Shown here piece after piece: positions 12,289-58,767 of a DNA stretch of 64,000 bases. The notes under the pieces are model-generated. The model had not been told where the DNA came from. It did no database searches and saw nothing but the letters and a program-made list of their open reading frames with translations. Position numbers and translations under genes: made by a program. The DNA lies in contig WNNJ02002125.1 of assembly GCA_012934845.2 (NCBI GenBank), positions 116,352 through 180,351 of the forward strand. The letters run 5' to 3'. Position 1 is the first letter of the stretch. Each line of letters starts with the position of its first letter. The DNA comes from Pomphorhynchus laevis (lineage: Eukaryota > Acanthocephala > Palaeacanthocephala > Echinorhynchida > Pomphorhynchidae).

Positions 12289-13110
12289 TAAAAATTAGAT
12301 TTTAGTTTTAGGTCTTTTAAATGTAAAAGAAAAAATTGTATAGTTTGTGATGTTATAAATAATAATTGTATTGCAAGTAATACGACAAAAAAATATTTTT
12401 CATTAAATATTAATAATAATTGTAACTGCAATACTCTAATACAATGTACATGTGGATTGCAATATATAGGAAAAATATATCAAATGTTAAAAACTAGGTT
12501 TAGGCAACACATATATAATATACAGCATAATAGTCAAACTATATTTCATAAACATATGAGATTTATAGGACATGATATTAAAAACTGTAAATTATTTATT
12601 TTAGAACATATTATCGAAGAAAACATATCAATATTAAATCAAAAACTATTAGAAAAATTAGATTTTTGGATTAAAACGCTTAATTCAATGAACACATTAG
12701 GATTGAATGACGTGGTACAAGGAATTGGCAGAAGTAGTATAATACATAATAAACAACTATATTATAATAATCCGGTTAAACGCAAACCAAGAAGTCATGG
12801 TGATAAAAGTAATATAAAAAATAGAGTTAAAAATATTAAAAAAGATATGTATATAAATGAACAATTAGAAATATTAAAACAACGTTTAAGTTATAATAAG
12901 CTAAAAGATCTTTATGAAAATATAAGAAGTTTTTCTAAAGAAATGATATGTTCAATAAATCAAAAATTAATTAACGACTATGATAGGCTAAGTTGTATAA
13001 TAGACATTTATCGTAAAACAAAATACTATAATCGGACAATAAATGTTAATAATAACAATAGAAAATATACATTAATCATAAACTTCATTAAAAAAGGTAT
13101 AGATACATAA
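12289..13110 (+). pseudogene. Naiad-like N-terminal GIY-YIG endonuclease and linker
   Basis: The open frame has cysteines in the pattern KCKRKNCIVCDV, then LIQCTCGLQYIGKIYQ and LKTRFRQHIYN, the YIG half and catalytic Arg helix of the GIY-YIG fold. Compared with the copy at 17.5 kb, 15 nt are missing in frame (about 12436), removing AGVVY, that is, the GIY half of the motif. The linker continues with NSMNTLGLNDVVQG and RKPRSHGDK. It stops at TAA 13108 through a one-base change; homologous residues continue in another frame. Confidence 0.75.
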
Positions 13111-13811
13111 ATATGGCCGGACTTTTGAAAAATTCTAAAAGTAAAGAAATAATAGGGTCAGATTTAAGTAAATATATTCCTAAAATAAGGTATAAACTCC
13201 TACCACCATTAGGACGAAACATTTGTAATTATAATAAAGAATTAAAATTAATATGTAACGATAACATTAGAAACATAATAGAAACATAATGCAATTGTGA
13301 AAGTCTTAGTTTTGATAAAATAAATGAACATATATGTACCCATAATCTAGAATTAATTGAAAATTGTGAATTAAGAAAGCTGCTATCAAAAGGGTATAAA
13401 TATAGATTAAATAACAACAACGACAAAAATAAAATTTACAGTTCGTTATATAATAACTTAAATGATTACTTTAGTAAGCTGATTAATAGTGAAATCTCGA
13501 ATATATCTAAGATAAAAATTTGGAAATATTATATATTTGATAAAATTAAAAATAAAATGAAAATAACAAACAATTATAAAAGGAAAGATAAAATTAATAA
13601 AGATATGTATAAAGAACTTACTAAATTAAAGGATAACTATATAATAACAACTATTGTTAAAGCTAGTAATAACTTTGTCTTCATATGCAAAAATCTTTAT
13701 TATGATATACTAATGAAAGAGGTTAATTCTAATGATTTAAATGTAAATCCAACTTATGAACGTTGTGAGTTGAGTTTAGAAACAATTATTCAAGTCACTG
13801 TTCTATAATGG

Positions 13812-14794
13812 ATAAAAAGGGTATAAAGGTTGAATTAGGTAATAAAACTAAACCTATATTATATTGGAATCCAAAATTAAAAAAACCCAATAAAACCTAG
13901 GTTCATATGTAGTGCGTTTAAATGTACATTAAAACCACTTTCTGTCTATATGAATAAAATACTTAAAGTAATTAAAGCACATTTTAAAAAATATTGCAAG
14001 GTAATCGAAATTAATACTGCTAAAAACACTATTTCAGTATTAATTCTACAACAGAATTTTTAGAACAGACAAAAGGAATAAATTTTCAAAATATAAATAC
14101 ATACGATTTTAGTACGCTTTATACAAATCTAGATTTAGTAGATATTAAAGAAGCGTTAGTAAAATTAATTAATCTTATATTCGGAAAAAGATATACATAT
14201 ATATGTTATAATAATTATAACGCCTATCTAACAAAAATTAAACCATCAAGTAAATATAAATATATAGATAAAATTCAATTAATAGAATCCTTAAATATTT
14301 TGATAAATCAAAATTATTTAAAAGTAGGGACATCTATATTTAGACAAGTAAAATGTGTTCTAATGAGTGGTAATCGTAGCCCAGTTATAGCTGACTTGTA
14401 TGTAAGCTTTATAGAATATGAATTTGTTCATAACTGTGTAAAAACTAAATCTAAACAATATAAATATATGAAATATATGTTTCGATACATTGATGATATA
14501 TGTGTATTTAATTCTAATAATTTTTATTCAATTAGTGAGCACATTTATCCAGAAAGCCTTATTCTTAACAAAACCAATATTAATGATAAAGAAGGTGTAT
14601 ATCTAGATATGAACATTAAATTAACATTAACTAAAACTACTATTAATTTATATCGTAAAGATGACATATTTAAATTTACAAGAAACATATTTTTGCATAA
14701 GCATTCATGCATACCATATAATATAAAATATAATACATTAAATAATGAAATTTTAAGAATTGCAACAATATGTAATGATATTGACTTTCTTTAA
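13812..14794 (+). pseudogene. Naiad-like reverse transcriptase
   Basis: RT pieces in order: ILYWNPKL (13858), CSAFKCTLKPLS (13910), TYDFSTLYTNLDLVDI (motif A, about 14100), GTSIFRQVKC and SPVIADLYVSFIEYEF (motif B region, 14330-14420), MFRYIDDICVF (motif C, 14476), and YLDMNIKL (14600). Frameshifts occur near 13890 and 14030. The last 164 codons are open until a CAA-to-TAA change at 14792-14794. RT of PLEs copies element RNA, probably by target-primed synthesis. This copy cannot make a full protein. Confidence 0.85.
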
Positions 14795-14935
14795 AATCAT
14801 TTAAATAATTTAACATATTTTAATCTAGGTTACTATAAAAATAACATCAAGCATAAAATAGGAAAATATATAAATCAACACAATAATATATAGCATAAAT
14901 TTAAACTCTAAAGTGGCACATTTTTATGGATGGAT

Positions 14936-15030
14936 AATAAATAATATACTTTGTATTAGAATAAGATACTATATAATCAAATTTCATCAGAGGAAATACG
15001 TCCTTACACACGTATTTGAATTAAATACGT
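14936..15030 (+). repeat. Naiad-like 3' UTR head, truncated
   Basis: Follows the RT tail. Contains TTTCATCAGAGGAA (outer stem strand) and the hairpin AAATACGT/ACGTATTT with loop CCTTACAC, then breaks off at about 15025. The hairpin stem differs from other copies (AAATACAT/ATGTATTT) by a compensatory pair. Confidence 0.7.
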
Positions 15031-15032
15031 GA

Positions 15033-15252
15033 TTAAATTCATAATTGTTTTTAGATTTTCTATAATTTAAATCAAGTTAAAATAAAAAATTGAAATTTAA
15101 AATAAACTTCATTTTTATGAATTGACTAATAAATAACAGACGTTGTATCAGAATAAGAATTAGAGGTCATCAGGAGGAACTGCTATGCTATCATGCTTCG
15201 GCTCCTAATTCCTCGATCCAACATAGAAGTGGAGCCAAATACGTGCTAATGG
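15033..15252 (-). repeat. Inverted copy of the Naiad-like 3' UTR
   Basis: Minus-sense copy holding the structured head (15252-15155) with P1 GGCTCC/GGAGCC instead of GGCCCC/GGGGCC, then the AT-rich tail to about 15033. It is inserted back-to-back with the plus copy and separates two RT C-terminal segments. Confidence 0.75.
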
Positions 15253-15254
15253 CA

Positions 15255-15746
15255 TATTTTAAACTAGGTTTCTATAAAAATAACATCAAGCATAAAATAG
15301 TAAAATATATAAATCAACACAATAATATAAAGAATAAATTTAAACTCTTAAGTAGCAAATTTTTATGGATGGATAATAAATAATATATTTTGCATTAGAA
15401 TAAGATACTATATAGTTATTTCAGAGGAAATACATCATTAGCATGTATTTGGCCCCGCTGCTATGTTGGGTAGAAGAGTTAGTGGCCGAAACCTGATAGC
15501 ATATCAGTTCCTCCTGATGACCTCCAATTCTTATTCTGATACAAGGTATGTTATTTGTTAGTCAATTCATAAAAATGACGTTTATTTTAAATTTCAATTT
15601 TTTATTTTTACTTGATTTAAATTATAGAAAATCTAAAAACAATTATGAATTTAATTATTTAATTATAAAATTTTGATTTAGCATTATTATGTTTTGTTTA
15701 GTTTATAATTATATTAAATACGTAGACTCAGTTAGCTGATTTGATT
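15255..15746 (+). repeat. Naiad-like RT C-terminus plus complete 3' UTR
   Basis: 15255-15383 encodes KNNIKHKIVKYINQHNNI and ends FLWMDNK-stop, as in the copy ending 46254. The 3' UTR follows: P0 strand, hairpin AAATACAT/ATGTATTT, pseudoknot (about 15448-15515), then the AT-rich tail ending at the signature near 15721-15746. Confidence 0.8.
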
Positions 15747-32581: not shown

Positions 32582-35500
32582 CTAAATTTTCGACGTACGA
32601 GCAGCACGTATAGACATCGAAGACATTTTTGCTAAAGCAAAACCGACTCTACTCCTTATATTTCGGATACAGGCGCTGTAATTATCGCAAGTTCTATCTG
32701 CTCGTATCTTTGCTATTTTCTTTAAAATCATCTGTGCTGTACTGCCAAGGGCACCGTTGGAGGCAAGAACAATAGGATAAAATGACGATCGTTCAAACCG
32801 TGCTATTCTTTCACCATACTTCGAGTTTTTTCTAGCCTCGTGATAGTTAAAAGCATTGCTTGTCGTGCCAGATGAATAAGAAGGAGCAAGATGGCTGAAA
32901 ACACAAATGTCAAATAATGACCGCTCCGTCTTATCCCCAAACAGACCGTAACACGCAACATCAACTCTAGAATTACGATCAAGGGTCGTTGTGGAATTTT
33001 TGAAAACTATTCCTTCAGGCAAAGGTTGTAAAGGATGTTCAATTGATGTTGAACTGCATACATCGGATAGTTCTTTAGCAATAATATCACGAACCACGTT
33101 ATGTCTAATTGTTGGAATACCACCGGACTGACAAGCAACAGCATGACAAATATCAAAATTGTGTCCACACAAACATTTCATGGGTGAGTCCGGAGGTTTC
33201 CATCCATAGCGTGATGCCAGAGCATCTTGAAATTGCCTTTTGCTTAAGTGGTGATTAAGTACTAATGAAGGTTTTGCTGAAAGCCAATTAGATGCCCCTT
33301 TACAGGCTGCGAAATCGAGACAAGCGCTAATAGTCGCTGATTTTGATTTAACCCTCATCAATCGAGTTTTGATAGATTCTTGCTTATATATTCTTATTTC
33401 TCGCGCAATTTGGGCATATCTAATCTCTAAATCACTTCCTGATAATCCATCTAGTAGAGGTTGGCTCATGCGTAATGAACTATCATATTCCGAAAGAGGA
33501 TTACTATTCGGGTCTAGTATACCCAATCCACCGTAGCGTAATGGAATCATTATCGAATCAAGTTGTCCCGTATCTAAATCAACTCCTGTCAACTTCGGAA
33601 TGATCGTGTCGAATATATACGATGAAAGACGTTCGTAACATGTGCTACTAGCCATACAAGTTCGTTGAACATAATTCCACTTGAATTGGAGCGCCTGCGT
33701 CAAAGCTGCAAAAGCGACGTATGGATCTTCATTCGCTACTAAATTCAAATTTTTTAATGATTCAATCCAGTTTTCAATTTTGCCATGAACAAATTGGTCC
33801 ATATATGTTTGATCTCCAATGGCAGAACCAAGAATTTCTGTACCTTGGTATATAATCTTAAGCCCTGTACCACAGAAAGTCTTCTCTGCTAATTTTATTT
33901 GATCTTTATGTACTAGAACCTGGCATTTTTGTTCATTTAGATGAAATCCATATCTATGGCCGATTTCGCGGATACCATTCCAGACTCTCAATACATCAGA
34001 TCGACTACCCACACAATTCGCATCGTATGCAAACCAGCGATGAGTAACGTTTGGTGCTATAGCTCTCAGCTTCATTATTAGTGGAAGTGATGACGCAGCA
34101 AATGCTATCATTGCCAGAGGATCACCTTGCGTGAACCCCTCCTTGGAAAACATTAAATCCTTGTCGACTGAAAGAGTTGCTGGATTACCATACACATTAC
34201 GCAGCACTGTTGCTAGTGAAGGACAAACATACTCGATATTTGCTAGAGCCAATTTACGGTTCACACAGTTAAAGGCATTTCGAGCATCTAGCTGCAACAA
34301 GCACATGTCACTGTTTTCCATGTAAACCTGTCGAATGGAATGTATCGCAGCCTCGACCCCGCATCTTTGTCCAGCGCACAATTGTTCGCATTTCGACACG
34401 ATCTGTAAGTCTTTACTTATCAACTTTGCCAGAACTTTTCCAACTATTCTGCGTGATACCTCACCAATCCCTATCGGCCTGATGCAGGGGTCCTTGTTCA
34501 ATGGAATTAAACGGCTTGCTGTAAATGCTGTAAGAGAGTCTGGGTTGATATTAACGGATGCCACTAGATACGAAAAATCAGCGAGACTGGAAGCTAGTCG
34601 AGAAGATGATATTCCGAACGAACATAGCATTGTGCGCCATATTTGCGCATCCATTCCTGAAGGTCCTGCTGATCCTTGAGTGCGTCGAGCTGCCTCTATA
34701 ATGTCATCGCTTGATATGTATTCAAAACGTACTGGGTGGTGCTTAACCATGTTTGGTAAAGGACTATTTAAAGCTACGCCTTCACTTATGTCGGAAGCTT
34801 CAGGGTGAAGCTGTAATAGCTTATGCCGCACACTCTGTGATTCAAAAGTATCGTCCAGCTCCATTATACCCATTTGATTGTGAGGATTTTCAAGCAATTT
34901 TATCGCTGAGTTTGTCTTGTGATGTGTCATTAGCTGAATAAATTTCTGGACCCAACTTGATTTTCTAGATGTCCTTTGGCTTTGGCACTTTCTCTGACTT
35001 TGAAGGATTCTTGCTTCACATAAAAGCTCGAACAAGTTTTGTTCCTTCCATAATTTTAGTCTGCGTTCAATATTTTTGCGTCTTGTACTCACACGACGAG
35101 ATTCCGTTCTTTGCAAAATTAACTGACACATCACCGTAGATGATTTAAGACTTAATTCTATCTGTGTTTGATCATCGACGCATAAACGATAAAATGACGC
35201 TAAATTGTCGATGAACTCGAAGCTTGCATTACATTTTGGTAGCTCGAACAAATTCGGATCCCATAAAATGACTTCTTTGTAAACCGAGTCAATGTCAATC
35301 CCTGTGTTAGTTTGTTTATCTGTGCTACTATGTAAGAGCTCAGTGGATTTATTAGTAAATCCAATACTACACAAGTTCAATTCCAAGATTTGGTTAATAC
35401 AGCCATTCACTGAATGTGATACATTCGTTCGCTCTGTGGATGGAATGATGGAGTCCAATAATAGCGGCGTTTCTTTAATGCGATTTTTGCAACTGGTAGC

Positions 35501-35614
35501 TAGACAGTCAATACAAGATCTTCCGGATTTCTTACAAGGACAACGTATACATTTTGCAGCTGAACCATTACACGTACAACAGCGAGAAAAGGAAGACGGT
35601 TTACCTCGCGGCAT
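32582..35614 (-). CDS. LINE with restriction-like endonuclease: single 1010-aa RT-EN polyprotein
   Basis: One uninterrupted frame. Residues about 11-45: cysteine-rich module CCTCNGSAAKCIRCPCK plus CIDCLATSCKN. RT about 300-640: RPIGIGEVSRRIVGK, LLQLDARNAFNCVNR (motif A), KEGFTQGDPLAMIAFA (motif B), RWFAYDANCVGSR (motif C), GTEILGSAIGD. Then IMIPLRYGGLGILD, a Cys/His region CLCGHNFDICHAVACQSGG and HNVVRDIIAKEL. At the C-terminus RVDV...SLFDICVF...YGERIARFE fits a PD-(D/E)XK nuclease. The frame is intact, but motif C reads F-A-Y-D instead of (F/Y)-A-D-D, one GAT-to-TAT change that should abolish RT. The 5' UTR is about 120 bp; the 3' end is A/T-rich near 32490. Confidence 0.85.
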   Translation of the reverse strand: MPRGKPSSFSRCCTCNGSAAKCIRCPCKKSGRSCIDCLATSCKNRIKETPLLLDSIIPSTERTNVSHSVNGCINQILELNLCSIGFTNKSTELLHSSTDKQTNTGIDIDSVYKEVILWDPNLFELPKCNASFEFIDNLASFYRLCVDDQTQIELSLKSSTVMCQLILQRTESRRVSTRRKNIERRLKLWKEQNLFELLCEARILQSQRKCQSQRTSRKSSWVQKFIQLMTHHKTNSAIKLLENPHNQMGIMELDDTFESQSVRHKLLQLHPEASDISEGVALNSPLPNMVKHHPVRFEYISSDDIIEAARRTQGSAGPSGMDAQIWRTMLCSFGISSSRLASSLADFSYLVASVNINPDSLTAFTASRLIPLNKDPCIRPIGIGEVSRRIVGKVLAKLISKDLQIVSKCEQLCAGQRCGVEAAIHSIRQVYMENSDMCLLQLDARNAFNCVNRKLALANIEYVCPSLATVLRNVYGNPATLSVDKDLMFSKEGFTQGDPLAMIAFAASSLPLIMKLRAIAPNVTHRWFAYDANCVGSRSDVLRVWNGIREIGHRYGFHLNEQKCQVLVHKDQIKLAEKTFCGTGLKIIYQGTEILGSAIGDQTYMDQFVHGKIENWIESLKNLNLVANEDPYVAFAALTQALQFKWNYVQRTCMASSTCYERLSSYIFDTIIPKLTGVDLDTGQLDSIMIPLRYGGLGILDPNSNPLSEYDSSLRMSQPLLDGLSGSDLEIRYAQIAREIRIYKQESIKTRLMRVKSKSATISACLDFAACKGASNWLSAKPSLVLNHHLSKRQFQDALASRYGWKPPDSPMKCLCGHNFDICHAVACQSGGIPTIRHNVVRDIIAKELSDVCSSTSIEHPLQPLPEGIVFKNSTTTLDRNSRVDVACYGLFGDKTERSLFDICVFSHLAPSYSSGTTSNAFNYHEARKNSKYGERIARFERSSFYPIVLASNGALGSTAQMILKKIAKIRADRTCDNYSACIRNIRSRVGFALAKMSSMSIRAARTSKI

Positions 35615-35734: not shown

Positions 35735-35819
35735 AATGATTAATTAAAAATGTAATAATAATAATTAATTAGTAATAATAATTAATAGTAATAGTAATAT
35801 TAATATTAATAGTAATATT
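35735..35819. repeat. (TAATAGTAATAT)n microsatellite, LINE tail
   Basis: Degenerate TAATAG/TAATAT repeats at the 3' end of the truncated LINE copy. The same repeat separates the two copies (36274-36299) and flanks the 5' end of the full LINE (40937-41117). Confidence 0.75.
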
Positions 35820-36273
35820 CTGAGAAATTTTATTTTCCTCACTTCCGCTTGTAAGCGATGGAGGTAGAAAATACAGTCAATTTATATACAAAAATGTCAG
35901 CTTATTATTGTACTTATCGAGCTAGTCGTCATCCATCACGAGGACGAAAAGTGTGCAGAAGTTGTGGGAACGTTACGAAATGACGATATCGAATCTACTT
36001 TGCGCAAACTCCATGTAGAAAGAACTGAACATGAAAACAGATGGAGAAGGTCACAACATGAAAGTCCACAGAAACGACAGTAACAGTCAGAATTTCTTGA
36101 ATGACAAGGCAACCTGATCATACAAAATTTGTCATGGTAACCATGAGTAGATATTCTCCAAACAAGCGGTCGGTTTGCATTAAATGGCATTTTCCAATTA
36201 TTCTGAAGAAATACCGGAGTGCAATAAATAGCAGGATCAAGTTTTGCAACAGAAATCTGCGTATTGCTGAGAT
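35820..36273 (-). mobile_element. 5'-truncated LINE copy, 454 bp
   Basis: Identical by eye to 36300-36753, the 3' end of the neighbouring full-length LINE. It includes ORF2 C-terminus codons (HGYHDKFCMIRLPC, CRFCGLSCCDLLHLFSC) and 3' UTR. It joins the larger copy through 26 bp of TAATAG microsatellite. Lack of differences implies a very recent event. Confidence 0.85.
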
Positions 36274-36415
36274 TTAGTAATAGTAATATTAATAGTAATC
36301 TGAGAAATTTTATTTTCCTCACTTCCGCTTGTAAGCGATGGAGGTAGAAAATACAGTCAATTTATATACAAAAATGTCAGCTTATTATTGTACTTATCGA
36401 GCTAGTCGTCATCCA

Positions 36416-39310
36416 TCACGAGGACGAAAAGTGTGCAGAAGTTGTGGGAACGTTACGAAATGACGATATCGAATCTACTTTGCGCAAACTCCATGTAGAA
36501 AGAACTGAACATGAAAACAGATGGAGAAGGTCACAACATGAAAGTCCACAGAAACGACAGTAACAGTCAGAATTTCTTGAATGACAAGGCAACCTGATCA
36601 TACAAAATTTGTCATGGTAACCATGAGTAGATATTCTCCAAACAAGCGGTCGGTTTGCATTAAATGGCATTTTCCAATTATTCTGAAGAAATACCGGAGT
36701 GCAATAAATAGCAGGATCAAGTTTTGCAACAGAAATCTGCGTATTGCTGAGATGGATCGAGAGTGCCGGTGTTATAGGCAGATTAAACGAATTTGCAAAG
36801 GTATACGCACACGATGAGAGTTGAGATAACGCTGACACTAATGTCGAAGAGGTCATGGGTGAGAGCCCTGTGATACGTTTAATATACCTCCATTGAAGCG
36901 AATCAAATTTGCGGAAATTAGCAGTAGTAAGATCAAGCCAGATCGCCTGAATACCATATGTCAATATAGGAAGGATCATCACCTTAAAGAATTTTAGGGC
37001 ACCGTCGAAGGACAAATTACCTATGTTTCTGAAGGAATACATTCTTTCAGTTGCCTTGACACACTTGTTGGAAATATGTTTCGAGAATGTCCATTTCGAA
37101 TTTAAAACAATACCAAGGTAGGAATACTCACAACAAAATTCAAAATTGCTATTTCGATATTGCAATGAGTCATCACCGCGTAGACGGCCACCCTTCCTGA
37201 ATTTTATAGCTCGGGACTTATCTAGATTTACCACTATAAAATTTTGTGTGCAGTAGGTATCTAGACGATTCAATGACATTGTTGCTGAATCAATATCATG
37301 AGAAAGTATGACTAAATCATCTGCATACATTATGCAGCTGGATCTACCGCTTTGACAAACAAAGAAGGGAAGGTCACTAACGAATAGCGTGAAAAGCAGC
37401 GGGCTTAAAGGATCCCCTTGTAACACCCCTCGATTTTGGATCAAGTGTTGTGACAATTGCAGTCCATCCGAAATACGAATTTCATTAGGCGACAATATGG
37501 CTGCAAGTAGTTTTAACATTGGACCGCGTATGTGAAACTCGAAATGAAGCTTGCTTAGTAAGAGAGACCGATTCACAGAGTCAAACGCCTTTGTAAAATC
37601 AATAAATAACGCATACATGCATGAATTTGCTGCGAAACGCTGTTTTACCCTTTCTCTTAAAGTAGAAATCGCCCCAACTGTAGATCTACCTGGTCGAAAT
37701 CCATATTGTTCATTCGCTATACGTGAACCACATGATCGCATAATACGACGGTGAACTAGCGAAGTCAATAGTTTATAGGCATGATTTGTTAAGGCTATTC
37801 CTTGATAAGAGTTCGTAGATAAAGGATCTGTTTTGCCTTTATACATAACTTTTATGGTCGCTTCTTTCCAGGACTTAGGAATAGGACATCCAAACAGAAT
37901 AGAATTGTAAAGCCCCAACCAGAATGGCTCTAATATATGTAGAGACTGTTTGATATGCTCTATGCATAACCCATCAGGGCCAGCCGCCTTTCTTATCGAT
38001 ATAGAAAATATACAAGCTCTTAACTCCTGAAGAGTAAATGGAGAATTTAAGATCTGATCAATGTCATGATTTATTTCCGTAAAGGAGAATTGTGAAAGTA
38101 ATAAAGGATACGAAGAAGAAACATATTCATTCAAGGGATCGTACAAAACAGCCCTGAAATGATTTTCCCACTTATCAAGAGGAATCTTAGATGATAATGC
38201 AAGTTGTCTAACTTTCAACTTCCAAGGGTATATTTCAGCATCCTTTAAAATACGTTGTTCTTCGGTCTTAAAATGCTTGTCTTTCAAACAATTAATAGAA
38301 GATCGATAGATCAACTTTAAGTCCCTATATTCCTTACTTTCGCGTGCTCTGAATGTCGGAAGTTTATGCATAGCAATGAGTTTACTACGAAGTTGACGCA
38401 AATACAGAGGAATTTTGAATGGTGAGCACGTCGGTTTCTGAGTAGATGCAAAGCAACATTCTAAGAGTGTATCTCGAACTTCGAGGTACCTCGAACCATC
38501 AGTACCAAGCAAATTAGTTGTAAGCGATGATAATCTAGGGTTTCTTAGATCTAGTCTACGACTCCGCTGTGAGATCGACTGTACGAGTGATGACGTCATC
38601 ACATCATCAAGAATGAGCTTGAAAATGACTGGCTTATGTTTTCTGCGTAAAGACCATTTGCTTTCTAGGCATAGGCGAGCTGATGTTACTTTGCAGTTTG
38701 TAAACAAAATATCTATACAACTTCTTCCCCGATCACTTTCGTAGGACCAACCCTCACTAGGGTAGCTAAGCTGAATGCCGTACGGAGTTAACGAATTGAC
38801 AATGTGCTTTATTTTATCCGACAATGGACTACTTACATTGGCATTAAAGTCACCTGCTATAATTATAGGGTGATTTTCTGGTAGAAAGCCTATGATATCT
38901 ACTAAATCAATGTTAATGTCAGAAACATCAATAGTTGGATTGAAATAACAACCCACGATTGAAATATGTGGGGTATGAACGATAACGCTAAAATCACTGG
39001 AGCTTGCATTCCAGGTCGAAATGATTGGCTTAACACCCACTACGATGCCTCCTATGGGACGACCTCGAATAGGGGCTTTTGCTAATTTTTCAAATACGTA
39101 AAAACCTTTTATGGATATCGGGTTACAGCAAAATGTCTCTGTTAATACTATGATGTCATATCCTCTTAAAAAGGAGTCAAATCCTTCAGATAAAAGCCTA
39201 TCAAGACCTTCTGCATTAAAAACCAAAACCTTCACAATTGAGGCGGAATCAGAACTCTGGTTAAGAGCCCGTGAACTAGTCGGGTGTAGACCAACAATGT
39301 TGGTCTTCAC
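36416..39310 (-). CDS. LINE ORF2: APE endonuclease and reverse transcriptase, 964 aa
   Basis: Endonuclease residues about 25-235: VLVFNAEGL, YDIIVLTETF, IIIAGDFNANVSS, SCIDILFTN, HKPVIF. The usual Ser-Asp-His reads Arg-Lys-His, so the Asp beside the catalytic His is replaced. RT about 430-760: GIALTNHAYKLL, NEQYGFRPGRSTVGAI, ALFIDFTKAFDSVNR (A), NRGVLQGDPLSPLLF (B), CIMYADDLVILS (C), VVNLDKSRAIKF (D), YSYLGIVLNSKW (E). C-terminal knuckle CRFCGLSCCDLLHLFSC. The ATG is 19 nt past the ORF1 stop, so reinitiation is plausible. It would nick target DNA and prime cDNA synthesis. No frameshift; probably young. Confidence 0.88.
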   Translation of the reverse strand: MKTNIVGLHPTSSRALNQSSDSASIVKVLVFNAEGLDRLLSEGFDSFLRGYDIIVLTETFCCNPISIKGFYVFEKLAKAPIRGRPIGGIVVGVKPIISTWNASSSDFSVIVHTPHISIVGCYFNPTIDVSDINIDLVDIIGFLPENHPIIIAGDFNANVSSPLSDKIKHIVNSLTPYGIQLSYPSEGWSYESDRGRSCIDILFTNCKVTSARLCLESKWSLRRKHKPVIFKLILDDVMTSSLVQSISQRSRRLDLRNPRLSSLTTNLLGTDGSRYLEVRDTLLECCFASTQKPTCSPFKIPLYLRQLRSKLIAMHKLPTFRARESKEYRDLKLIYRSSINCLKDKHFKTEEQRILKDAEIYPWKLKVRQLALSSKIPLDKWENHFRAVLYDPLNEYVSSSYPLLLSQFSFTEINHDIDQILNSPFTLQELRACIFSISIRKAAGPDGLCIEHIKQSLHILEPFWLGLYNSILFGCPIPKSWKEATIKVMYKGKTDPLSTNSYQGIALTNHAYKLLTSLVHRRIMRSCGSRIANEQYGFRPGRSTVGAISTLRERVKQRFAANSCMYALFIDFTKAFDSVNRSLLLSKLHFEFHIRGPMLKLLAAILSPNEIRISDGLQLSQHLIQNRGVLQGDPLSPLLFTLFVSDLPFFVCQSGRSSCIMYADDLVILSHDIDSATMSLNRLDTYCTQNFIVVNLDKSRAIKFRKGGRLRGDDSLQYRNSNFEFCCEYSYLGIVLNSKWTFSKHISNKCVKATERMYSFRNIGNLSFDGALKFFKVMILPILTYGIQAIWLDLTTANFRKFDSLQWRYIKRITGLSPMTSSTLVSALSQLSSCAYTFANSFNLPITPALSIHLSNTQISVAKLDPAIYCTPVFLQNNWKMPFNANRPLVWRISTHGYHDKFCMIRLPCHSRNSDCYCRFCGLSCCDLLHLFSCSVLSTWSLRKVDSISSFRNVPTTSAHFSSS

Positions 39311-39328: not shown

Positions 39329-40438
39329 TCATATAGGAGTAGATGGACAGAGAGGTGACGATTCCATGGTTGAAGAAGGGTCTTCACCTCGCAGCTCAAC
39401 GTGGGAGATTTCCGAACTAATCGGATTATGAGGAACAATATGAACTTGAACAATTCTGTTTTGTCGAATTCGAAACGATTTTTGTGGCTCATCGATCCTA
39501 CGCTTAATAAGCTCGGCGCGAAGAGATTTTTCCGCATCTCGTTCTGCTACGGATAGATCCGGCTTGATAAAAACTTTAGAATAATCATCATGGTGCCGAA
39601 GGGAAGGAGCTTTCGATAAAATAAGGTTTGTGAACGATGGGTTAGAGATTACCAACAGCCATGGAGGATATCTATCGTGATTGGCTGGTAAGCGAACGAG
39701 CTTAAGAGGTGTGTTGTTGTCCGTACAACCAATTATGGATATCATTTTCTTAACACATTTTCGGTCATCATCTGAAACGGGTAGATTTTTTATAACCACT
39801 GTCGAAGAACGTCTATTCTCCCGTTCAATCGTGCGTAATATCTCTACATTTGAAGCTCCTCTCTTGATTGCGGATGAACTTGCTAAAACTGCGCGAGTGA
39901 TTTCTGAACTAATATTCTTACTCGCTACTTTCGCCCAGGTGGGAGTGTGAGAATCTACATTATCATTGATCTTGTGTTTTTGAGAGACACTGCTAGATTG
40001 TGAACTAAACTGATGAATCTGAGACTTCAGCTCTAGTATCTCACTTCTTAAAGAATTAATCGCCATTTCGTGGGTTCTGAAACGTGCAGAGGTGCATGAT
40101 CCACAATAGAAGTCACGCATAAAGAAGTCACGAGTAAGACGAGAGGGAGTTTTTATTACTGTATAGATATCACAGTTTTCAGCCGTGCACTTTAATTCAA
40201 ATGATACGAACCTACTTGAATCTTCAGAATGTGTTGAGCTAGGCAATTTACTACTAATTGGTATCTGAGAGTGAGTGCTAGAGTTAGAATCGAATCCGTC
40301 CATGTTTGTTGTAACCGGGGCTCGATTTGTACATCTTTTGGCTGAACAATTAGTACAGAGCCTACCCGTCTTCGAGCAAACACAACTTCTGCACACTGCC
40401 GATCCTCCGTTGCAACTGCAACAACGTAGAGACATCAA
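39329..40438 (-). CDS. LINE ORF1, 369 aa, cysteine-rich RNA-binding protein
   Basis: Residues 5-38: RCCSCNGGSAVCRSCVCSK and LCTNCSAKRCTN, closely matching the N-terminus of the 1010-aa LINE protein. A second zinc-binding pattern follows at about 79-110 (CTAENC ... FYCGSC), then a helix likely to form a coiled coil (SLRSEILELKSQIHQFSSQ) and an RRM-like segment (STVVIKNLPVSDDDRK). ORF1 proteins coat LINE RNA. ORF2 starts 19 nt downstream. The ATG at 40438 is the first in frame. Confidence 0.82.
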   Translation of the reverse strand: MMSLRCCSCNGGSAVCRSCVCSKTGRLCTNCSAKRCTNRAPVTTNMDGFDSNSSTHSQIPISSKLPSSTHSEDSSRFVSFELKCTAENCDIYTVIKTPSRLTRDFFMRDFYCGSCTSARFRTHEMAINSLRSEILELKSQIHQFSSQSSSVSQKHKINDNVDSHTPTWAKVASKNISSEITRAVLASSSAIKRGASNVEILRTIERENRRSSTVVIKNLPVSDDDRKCVKKMISIIGCTDNNTPLKLVRLPANHDRYPPWLLVISNPSFTNLILSKAPSLRHHDDYSKVFIKPDLSVAERDAEKSLRAELIKRRIDEPQKSFRIRQNRIVQVHIVPHNPISSEISHVELRGEDPSSTMESSPLCPSTPI

Positions 40439-44900: not shown

Positions 44901-45507
44901 AAGCCGGATAATAAAAGCTGGTTCTGCCTTCTAACGTCTAAACTATCTATGGCGCGATACTAATGTATCAATTAAAATAAAGTTCCGAATGTATTCGTTT
45001 GTTGTCCGCCCACTTCTCTTGTATGGCTCTGAGTGCTGGCCTGTGAAACTTACCACAAGTAAGCAGCTTGATGTCTTTGAACGCCGCTGTTTACGCAGAA
45101 TTGCAAGAGTCAATCCGCTCGATCGCGTATCAAACGCATAAGTGTATTCACGATGTTCACTCGGCGTTACCGTGTCTGACCTGGTTCGAAAGAATAGACT
45201 GCGCTATCTTGGCCATGTACTGCGTATGGGAAGAGATAGACTACCTAAGTTAACGTTATACTTGGATCAGAAGGAATCTTTGCTGCGTACTATAGGCGGT
45301 GTTCGGAAGAATTTAAAGAGAACAATTGAATACGATGCCAAGAAAATTCTTTTCAAAATTTATTGAATATTTATTAATTTAAAAATTCTTTTCAAATTAG
45401 TTGGAGCAGATTAAAACGAAGATAAAGTTCGCTTTGATTTGACTTCTTTTTCTTGTTCTTCATGCTTTTTAACTCACGATCTTTATAGTCTAGTAATATC
45501 TAGTCTT
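41917..45507 (+). mobile_element. RTE-like LINE inserted in the Naiad-like element
   Basis: Flanked by the duplication AATAACTAT (41908-41916, 45508-45516). The endonuclease (42220-43166, one frameshift) shows RIATINVQT, FLVVGGDFNAQL, NQIDYIL and ATDHSLV. RT (43886-44934): SAGRDQIYPEFIK, NNRLISLLPVVYKIMESI, LFLNFKSAFDKVNLL (A), SGIRQGGVLSPKLFN (B), LIYADDVVVLT (C). C-terminal domain: RPLLLYGSECWPVKL and RLRYLGHVLRMGRDRLP, resembling RTE-like elements common in flatworms and other invertebrates. Several stops make it non-autonomous. The first 300 bp are a non-coding 5' region. Confidence 0.8.
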
Positions 45508-46254
45508 AATAACTATAACGCATATCTAAGAAAAATTAAACAATCAAGTAAATATAAATATAAATATATGGATAAAATTGAATTAATAGATTCCTTAAAT
45601 ATTTTGATAAATCAAAATTATTTAAAAGTAGGGACATCTATATTTAGACAAGTAAAATGTGTTCCAATGGATGGTAATAGTAGCCCAATTATAGCTGGCT
45701 TGTTTTTAAGCTCTTTAGAATATAAATTTGTTCATAACTGTGTAAAAACTAAATCTAAACAATATAAATATATGAAATATATGTTTCGATACATTGATGA
45801 TATATGTGTATTTAATTCTAATAATTTTTATTCAATTAGTGAGCACATTTATCCAGAAAGCCTTATTCTTAACAAAACCAATATTGATGATAAAGAAGGT
45901 GTATATCTAGATATGAACATTAAATTAACATTAACTAAAACTACTATTAATTTATATCGTAAAGATGACATATTTAAATTTACAAGAAACATATTTTTGC
46001 ATGAGCATTCATGCATACCATATAATATAAAATATAATACATTAAATAATGAAATTTTAAGAATTGCAACAATATGTAATGATATTAACTTTCTTCAAAA
46101 TCATTTAAATAATTTAATAGATACATATTTTAAACTAGGTTACTATAAAAATAACATCAAGCAGAAAATAGTAAAATATATAAATCAACACAATAATATA
46201 AAGAATAAATTTAAACTCTTAAGTGGGAAATTTTTATGGATGGATAATAAATAA
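45508..46254 (+). pseudogene. Naiad-like RT, 3' part, open frame
   Basis: From the right copy of AATAACTAT the frame is open to FLWMDNK-stop (46252-46254). Motifs: GTSIFRQVKCVPMDGN, SPIIAGLFLSSLEYKF (Asp of ADL changed to Gly), MFRYIDDICVF, YLDMNIKL, CIPYNIKYNTLNNEI, and a C-terminal tail INQHNNIKNKFKLLS. It is the best view of the RT C-terminus and defines the 3' UTR start. Confidence 0.8.
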
Positions 46255-57690: not shown

Positions 57691-57839
57691 CTGATGCATT
57701 AAGAAAGAAAAAGAGAAATTTATTTTCAGTGACAAATGCATGCCAAAGCACATGCCAAATTACATGCCCAATAAAATTGATATAAAATATAATTATATAA
57801 AATATAGAATTTATAAATAATTATAAAAAATATACAATT

Positions 57840-58025
57840 TTAATTCTATAAAATCTTATATAATTTGTTATTATTTATCTTTATTTAAATATCGTATAAA
57901 ATACGTAGACTCAGTTATCTGATCTGATTTGTTCAACTGACAAGTTATTATTGACCTGTTATCTTTTTATCCCGTTAATATAACCACTGTCAGAAATACT
58001 GAAACTATGTATTCTTGACACGAAT
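57840..58025 (+). repeat. Naiad-like 3' tail and shared downstream block
   Basis: Tail end ACGTAGACTCAGTTATCTG (57901-57919), then TTGTTCAACTGACAAGTTAT and GTCAGAAATACTGAAACTAT as at 17076-17170. Confidence 0.65.
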
Positions 58026-58111
58026 GTTTTTCTGCTAATTTTCAACCAAATGTTTAATAGACTTTCCTTTTCCTATAATTTTACAAATAAAAAAAATATC
58101 ATTAAAAATTT

Positions 58112-58495
58112 ATTTAAACTCTTAAGTGGCAAATTTTTATGGATGGATAATAAATAATATACTTTGTATTAGAATAAGATACTAGATAGTTTTATCAGAG
58201 GAAATACATCATTAGCATGTATTTGGCCCCGCTGCTATGTTGGGTAGAGGAGTTAGGGGCCGAAACCTGATAGCATAGCAGTTCCTCCTGATGACCTCTA
58301 ATTCTTATTCTGATACAACGTCTGTTATTTATTAGTCAATTCATAAAAATGACGTTTATTTTAAATTTCAATTTTTTATTTTAACTTGATTTAAATTATA
58401 GAAAATCTAAAAACAATTATTTATTTTATTATTTAATTATTAAATTTATATTTAGCATTACTAAATATGTAGACTCAGTTAGCTGATTTGATTTA
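58112..58495 (+). repeat. Naiad-like RT end and complete 3' UTR
   Basis: 58112-58160 is the RT C-terminus without frame (KFKLLSGKFLWMDNK equivalent). The best structural copy follows: outer stem ATCAGAGGAA (58194-58203) with TTCCTCCTGAT (58282-58292); hairpin 58202-58224; P1 GGCCCC (58225-58230) with GGGGCC (58256-58261); P2 CTGCTATG (58232-58239) with CATAGCAG (58274-58281). The tail ends TATGTAGACTCAGTTAGCTG. Confidence 0.85.
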
Positions 58496-58767
58496 TCTCA
58501 ACATTGATTTACCAGTGCTATAATTAATGAATTATAACTAAATAATAAATTATAACTAATTAATTAATTATTATATAATTAAAAAGTGAAATAATAATTA
58601 ATTATTAATTTTGAACAATAAATTCAACATTTTTGTGCAAATATTTTTCATTTAAACTGAAGATGAAGAGCAGGATATTGTAAATGTAATTACCAGTGCT
58701 GCTAGCTATCGCCACTTCAAAAAGCTGTGTTGAAATGGATTGTCAATTCCGGTTTGGATGCGTGGAT

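Follow-up and report, generated by a model that had tools for sequence, protein, structure and literature searches.

In A-clade R2 elements, target-primed reverse transcription (TPRT) starts once the element's protein has bound a pseudoknot in the 3′ UTR; structures show this, and compensatory mutants restore insertion (PMC12222951 and PMC12180492). Among the literature matches listed, none describes a pseudoknot in the 3′ UTR of permuted PLEs. Craig et al. are said to have reported in 2021 that permuted PLEs are without canonical hammerheads.

Canonical PLEs carry minimal type I hammerhead ribozymes (PMC7229834 and PMC11167929), and a PLE RT studied in vitro started internally at two adjacent sites and needed RNA in the first 172 nt of the ORF, next to a hammerhead (PMC11167929). 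PLE RTs cluster with TERT in a published tree (PMC12632851). In Tetrahymena telomerase RNA, stem I encloses the helix II hairpin, the template and the pseudoknot; a triple helix is described in the telomerase RNA pseudoknot, and the Tetrahymena pseudoknot may not form without TERT (PMC5855555).

Here we examine a 64,000-nt stretch of the Pomphorhynchus laevis genome (the window), in which a first-pass annotation, made from the letters of the DNA, had proposed a conserved pseudoknot with covariation in the 3′ UTR of a Naiad-like retroelement. The locus shares with A-clade R2 elements (zebra finch and turtle; pseudoknot-hinge-stem) a pseudoknot-capable 3′ UTR element upstream of a fixed RT start, which for this element is deduced from copy ends. 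The two differ in distance, the R2 pseudoknot being no more than ~70 nt from where the 3′ UTR ends and the present one at least 210 nt, and in context, R2 being a non-LTR element with site-specific insertion, whereas the present element adds a closing stem of 16+10 bp and an extra hairpin.

Results

The element is probably a permuted PLE, judging from a broken sister copy whose pieces we take to be GIY-YIG-like and RT-like and whose arrangement, GIY-YIG upstream of RT, is presumably the permuted order of Naiad/Chlamys PLEs:

12292..15383, plus strand: broken sister copy, in which a GIY-YIG-like piece at 12292-13110 is followed by RT-like pieces (13290-15383; YIDD)

The earlier label "Naiad-like" goes back to these motifs and their order, and no library, homolog or fold search confirms it: for the element protein, Pfam, protein-database and PDB sequence searches and AlphaFold2 without an alignment gave nothing usable. 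In viral contigs, a protein search found no relative, and a loop pattern occurred in 10 of them, each of which scored weakly with the profile (best E 0.015). The window also holds three long minus-strand open frames at 32582-35614 (RVT_1), 36416-39310 (RVT_1 plus exonuclease/endonuclease/phosphatase) and 39329-40438 (Cys-rich, 369 aa), as well as a 480-bp tandem repeat at 35792-36753 (99% matches).

The host retroelement is present in thousands of copies and carries the motif in its 3′ UTR. In the 249 Mb and 3,242 contigs searched, a 27-place motif pattern had 3,812 exact matches, a pattern for older subfamilies 700, and a conserved 31-mer from the 3′ side of the domain 9,831 with at most three mismatches. 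The copy that holds the domain is 5′-truncated, and the ORF of a sister copy (45439-46254) was used to assign its stop codon; the outer helix described below, P-1, starts six bases past that stop. Among the 116 distinct copies assembled for the larger covariation test (222 profile hits in 110 loci plus the window, of which 124 span the motif, 98 partial hits and 8 duplicates having been dropped), the stop anchor is found in 24, and in the 15 with both stop and P-1 anchors the spacing is identical.

The 3′ terminus is precise, reading ...GTAGACTCAGTTAGCTGATTTRA (also cited as ...CTGATTTGA), and lies 210-270 nt downstream of the P2′ end in 17 copies. By eye, many copies pass into unrelated flank after ...CTGATTTRA, whereas others share a continuation (TTTGTTCTACTGAC), which we read as a putative tandem unit. 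Coverage of the element by the 110 loci climbs strongly toward the 3′ side, a gradient that shows truncation only loosely because the loci were chosen by 3′ patterns; a fixed 3′ end and coverage falling 5′-ward are as expected from TPRT.

Several junctions involve the terminus. At 57842-58080 a copy terminus is followed by a shared continuation (TTTGTTCAACTGACAAGTTATTATTGACC...) in a pseudo-LTR-like junction; Rfam, searched at E 10 with the interval 57780-58139, gave nothing. In one locus (L104), near position 698, the terminus abuts an inverted copy of itself (GTAGACTCAGTTAGCTGAGTCTACG). On contigs C191 (positions 3139, 9617 and 16099) and C545 (4795 and 11286), diverged motif copies recur every ~6.48 kb, perhaps as tandem units larger than one element, and in the copy-start analysis they look like a single truncated insertion that was duplicated.

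Every strand named in the first-pass annotation was recovered where it had been placed, in the order P1-P2-P1′-P2′ within the core (58194-58292). A 16-bp outer helix, P-1, had been overlooked, and the structure is thus larger than reported. Its features, with the stop codon and the element terminus, are as follows:

58155..58157, plus strand: TAA stop of the RT-like frame, assigned from homologous sister copies ending ...KFLWMDNK
58164..58179, plus strand: P-1, 5′ strand (TTGTATTAGAATAAGA), 16 bp including one G-U in the MFE fold
58194..58203, plus strand: outer stem P0, 5′ strand (ATCAGAGGAA), pairing with 58282-58292
58204..58222, plus strand: hairpin (ATACAT/ATGTAT, loop CATTAGC)
58225..58230, plus strand: P1, 5′ strand (GGCCCC)
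58232..58239, plus strand: P2, 5′ strand (CTGCTATG)
58240..58255, plus strand: conserved loop L2 from P2 to P1′ (TTGGGTAGAGGAGTTA), mean identity 0.873
58256..58261, plus strand: P1, 3′ strand (GGGGCC), mean identity 0.771, the least conserved part among copies
58262..58273, plus strand: loop L3 (GAAACCTGATAG), identical in 58 of 163 copies and, with a final A, in 22 more
58274..58281, plus strand: P2, 3′ strand (CATAGCAG)
58282..58292, plus strand: P0, 3′ strand (TTCCTCCTGAT)
58303..58318, plus strand: P-1, 3′ strand (TCTTATTCTGATACAA), partner of 58164-58179
58469..58491, plus strand: element 3′ terminus (GTAGACTCAGTTAGCTGATTTGA), with a possible 4-bp hairpin TCAG/CTGA; 33 occurrences of the end word

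P0 comprises 10 bp and a single bulged C. The hairpin extends to as many as 8 bp (58202-58209/58217-58224) by taking AA/TT from its neighbours, its first two A being shared with P0, so that it has 6 bp if both form. P1 has 6 bp, or 9 bp with a UUU/GAA extension in a competing fold, and AA precedes P2′ in three of six group consensuses, making a 10-bp P2 without a wobble possible. The parts are closely packed: P1 directly abuts the hairpin, with zero nucleotides between 58224 and 58225, the P1-P2 linker is a single G (58231), and P2′ directly adjoins P0′. Two interleaved helices of at least 5 bp each are present in the family consensus, as complementarity and not as formation. An interleaved 6+8 bp pair arose in 148 of 20,000 dinucleotide shuffles in either order and in 67 in the native order, and none of the 20,000 combined the native order with a closing helix and a linker no longer than 2 nt; these counts are a guide and not a clean P value, the packing criteria having been chosen after inspection of the sequence. 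The GAGGA of the P0 5′ strand (58198-58203) recurs in L2 (58240-58255), where it is found in 93 of 152 complete loops. Both L2 and the P0 5′ strand are candidate partners of TCCTC (58283-58287), which might allow a switch.

The domain folds stably when its outer helix is included. The computed energy of 58160-58325 is -54.7 kcal/mol (z -4.6, 200 shuffles), the lowest among seven like-sized segments, the six other 167-nt segments having z of -0.4, -0.9, -3.2, 0.9, 1.4 and 0.9 (60 shuffles each). The core alone gives -31.0 kcal/mol (z -1.6 for the 99-nt core), and the 117 nt of 58184-58300, without the outer helix, fold unremarkably (z -1.2, with 23 of 200 shuffles equally good). Folds of 40 individual copies, cut at fixed offsets and in some cases misregistered, had a median z of -2.0, with 40% below -3. 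Across the 116 copies, 83% of cells at 12 P-1 pairs are paired, and double compensations in P-1 show no excess (10 against 9.2 expected).

The computed optimum (-54.7 kcal/mol) is a nested fold without P2, in which P1 gains UUU/GAA, the hairpin is lost and P2 is open. Forcing P1, the hairpin and P0 with P2 single-stranded gives -49.0, a cost of 5.7 kcal/mol; P2 as a duplex is worth -10.1 kcal/mol, and the P1-only (-50.8) and P2-only (-51.8) folds are near equal. A pseudoknot carries a penalty of several kcal/mol, and given that cost the nested and pseudoknotted states are predicted to be near equal in energy. Protein binding may decide between the folds, as suggested for the Tetrahymena pseudoknot.

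The covariation announced for the motif was not confirmed, and we reject it as proof of the structure. In a tree-based test, the 116 copies yielded zero significant pairs. This test combined a G-test and APC with a home-made null re-dealing substitutions along the tree (60 simulations); its best pair (E 0.08) joins two loop columns, no helix pair is among the 70 listed, and the top-scoring pairs are subfamily-diagnostic columns. In nine copies from the window, 81.3% of cells are paired, a value that 41 of 500 shuffles reach (shuffle mean 79.9%), and the covariation score is matched by 78 of 500 shuffles; pairs changed on both sides number 6 against 2.9 (17 of 500). At the level of whole helices, in 250 distinct rows from 268 hits, some selected with patterns in which the P2 5′ strand is fixed, at a cost in power, double compensations amount to 21 against 14.1 expected in P1 and 10 against 4.5 in P2, small excesses reached by 1.7% and 0.4%, respectively, of 1,500 random pseudo-helices. 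No clear excess was seen there in the hairpin (2 against 1.5), P0 (6 against 4.4) or P-1 (5 against 3.3), nor in slid versions of P1 and P2. The sole variable hairpin pair has 18 double compensations against 11.3 in the 116 rows.

The variant copies that had been quoted as paired changes all exist: P1 reads GGCTCC/GGAGCC in a minus-strand copy at 15259-15162, P2 reads CTACTATG/CATAGTAG in a minus-strand copy at 52066-51958, and the hairpin variant lies at 14982-15018. The P1 and P2 exchanges, however, look like scattered, single decayed copies rather than families or a subfamily with exchanged helices, their numbers being close to what the decay of dead copies would yield. Genome-wide, the third pair of P2 is G-C in 4,566 of 4,701 copies, with 58 changes on the 5′ side only, 74 on the 3′ side only and 3 on both, and the fourth pair of P1 is unchanged in 2,791 of 2,886, with 51 and 41 single changes and 3 double. 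The expected doubles are 0.94 for the P2 pair and 0.75 for the P1 pair; P is 0.07 and 0.04, respectively, when the window copies count, one double exchange of each pair being the window copy itself. Pooled without these copies, which had suggested the test, 4 doubles stand against 1.7 expected (P 0.09). Single changes leaving a wobble number 125 against 99 that break the pair, which is not significant (P 0.09).

Grouping by diagnostic columns divides the 116 copies into six groups (38, 36, 13, 12, 11 and 6), three of which are leftovers, and the domain is present in all six. The six consensuses do not differ in P1 or in the 8-bp P2, an invariance that is neutral as evidence of pairing. At a 60% majority, the columns differing between groups are 3 of 88 paired, 7 of 65 unpaired within the domain and 3 of 106 flanking. 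Paired against unpaired columns within the domain give a Fisher P of 0.10; against all other columns (3/88 and 10/171, P 0.55) the paired ones are not more conserved, and without the group-defining columns the counts are 1 against 8 (P 0.28). All three changes in paired columns keep their pairs (hairpin AU to GU to GC; ninth pair of P2, UG to UA), and under a less strict rule the outermost P0 pair is included as well, which the young group has lost (UU in its consensus). The comparison leans, weakly, toward constraint. Copy identity is 0.77-0.93 across the parts of the domain and 0.877 in the spacer.

The strand order, with a short J1/2, is that of HDV-like ribozymes, and CNRA, the sequence at the HDV catalytic C (J4/2) and a short motif, occurs before P2′ in 132 of 163 copies. 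A P3 can form in only 2 of 152 complete loops, and Rfam gave no HDV match at E 10. HDV-like ribozymes have a P1 of ~7 bp against 6 bp here (9 extended), and a 3-bp P3 that closes L3 between P2 and P1′; those of R2 lie at 5′ ends, whereas this motif is in the 3′ UTR without P3/L3. L3/P3 is critical in R2 ribozymes and P4 may be absent (PMC3774820), so a missing P4 is not decisive here. A mobilisation ribozyme should leave copies starting at its cut site, and scattered starts therefore count against one: copy 5′ ends, at loci mostly chosen by patterns within or beside the motif, scatter with no pile-up at P1, the clusters near it being mostly one insertion in a repeated unit.

CTGATGA and GAAA, which a hammerhead would need together with an NUH site and stems I-III to join them, both occur, but no GAAA lies within 60 nt after CTGANGA in 57781-58520, and Rfam gave no hammerhead match even at E 10. 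Type II and S-G-C orders, the latter described in PMC10085705, were tried by hand and rejected: stem II puts C opposite C beside the core, and the sole GAAA-then-CTGATGA pair has no fitting stem III partner or NUH site. The likeness to canonical PLE hammerheads is that of structured RNA near a pseudo-LTR, and the difference is that no hammerhead core order fits here. A SECIS element was also considered and had no Rfam match at E 10.

Discussion

We put at about an even chance that the domain is a cis-acting RT-recognition site, like the A-clade R2 3′ UTR pseudoknot. The 3′ UTR would fold as one compact domain (58164-58318), with a long two-part stem, P-1/P0, whose head holds the hairpin and an almost linker-free H-type pseudoknot (P1/P2). 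The element's own RT would bind this domain on its transcript and, once bound, would be placed to start TPRT at the fixed 3′ terminus ~0.2 kb downstream. RT recognition had been offered in the first-pass annotation as an alternative to catalysis, and we judge it the better of the two. The description of a conserved, probably pseudoknotted 3′ UTR domain likewise keeps its footing in complementarity, in packing and, once the outer helix is counted, in the energy of the fold, though not in covariation.

It is possible, though unlikely, that a stable stem-loop serves the transcript itself, through 3′ UTR protection, translation control or nuclear export, the pseudoknot being incidental and P1 and P2 perhaps alternating. 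A large share of the energy comes from the long outer helix (58160-58325 at -54.7, the core at -31.0), the folds with P1 alone and P2 alone are near equal and the domain begins six bases after the stop codon, all in keeping with such a role; it leaves unexplained, however, both the linker-free interleaving (0 of 20,000 shuffles) and the unchanged P1 and P2 in six groups. That the domain has no function, and is a chance fold of a single master that has spread into thousands of copies, we consider improbable: packing and energy exceed shuffles and the helices are retained across groups, even if copy identity is alike inside and outside the domain and the quoted variants resemble post-insertion decay.

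A feature acting at the DNA level, either an inverted repeat and loop read by the element's endonuclease or a palindrome-prone insertion, with the RNA fold as by-product, is decidedly improbable. Its precedent is the D. virilis Penelope endonuclease, which cut plasmids carrying a fragment of the element (older results quoted in PMC11167929), and the inverted join at the terminus in L104 points the same way, but interleaved helices differ from a DNA palindrome and the copies show no preferential break at the motif.

We give little credence to the idea that the domain is a telomerase-RNA-like core within a retroelement message, bound by a TERT-related RT and with the template 3′ of the domain. 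The ciliate core presents the same order of closing stem, hairpin (~8 bp there, 6-8 here) and pseudoknot, and has the template between hairpin and pseudoknot, whereas here neither template nor linker intervenes (58224/58225). The telomerase RNA pseudoknot has a U-rich loop 1; here, as judged from sequence only, there is none for major-groove triples, the P1-P2 linker being one G. With the template gap and the U-rich loop missing, the domain falls outside the definition of a telomerase RNA core. Were the idea true, the telomerase RNA pseudoknot core and the RT-binding site of permuted PLEs could share an origin or at least a binding mode.

A self-cleaving ribozyme, HDV-like in strand order or an unusual hammerhead, cutting near the P1 5′ end, is the least probable reading and very unlikely, the near absence of P3, the lack of any preference for starts at P1 and the Rfam searches speaking against what strand order, CNRA and hammerhead words suggest.

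How a PLE RT chooses its own RNA is barely known, and a candidate RT-recognition domain of 155 nt makes the question testable. The proximity of PLE RTs to TERT means that an answer would also bear on the origin of the telomerase RNA pseudoknot.
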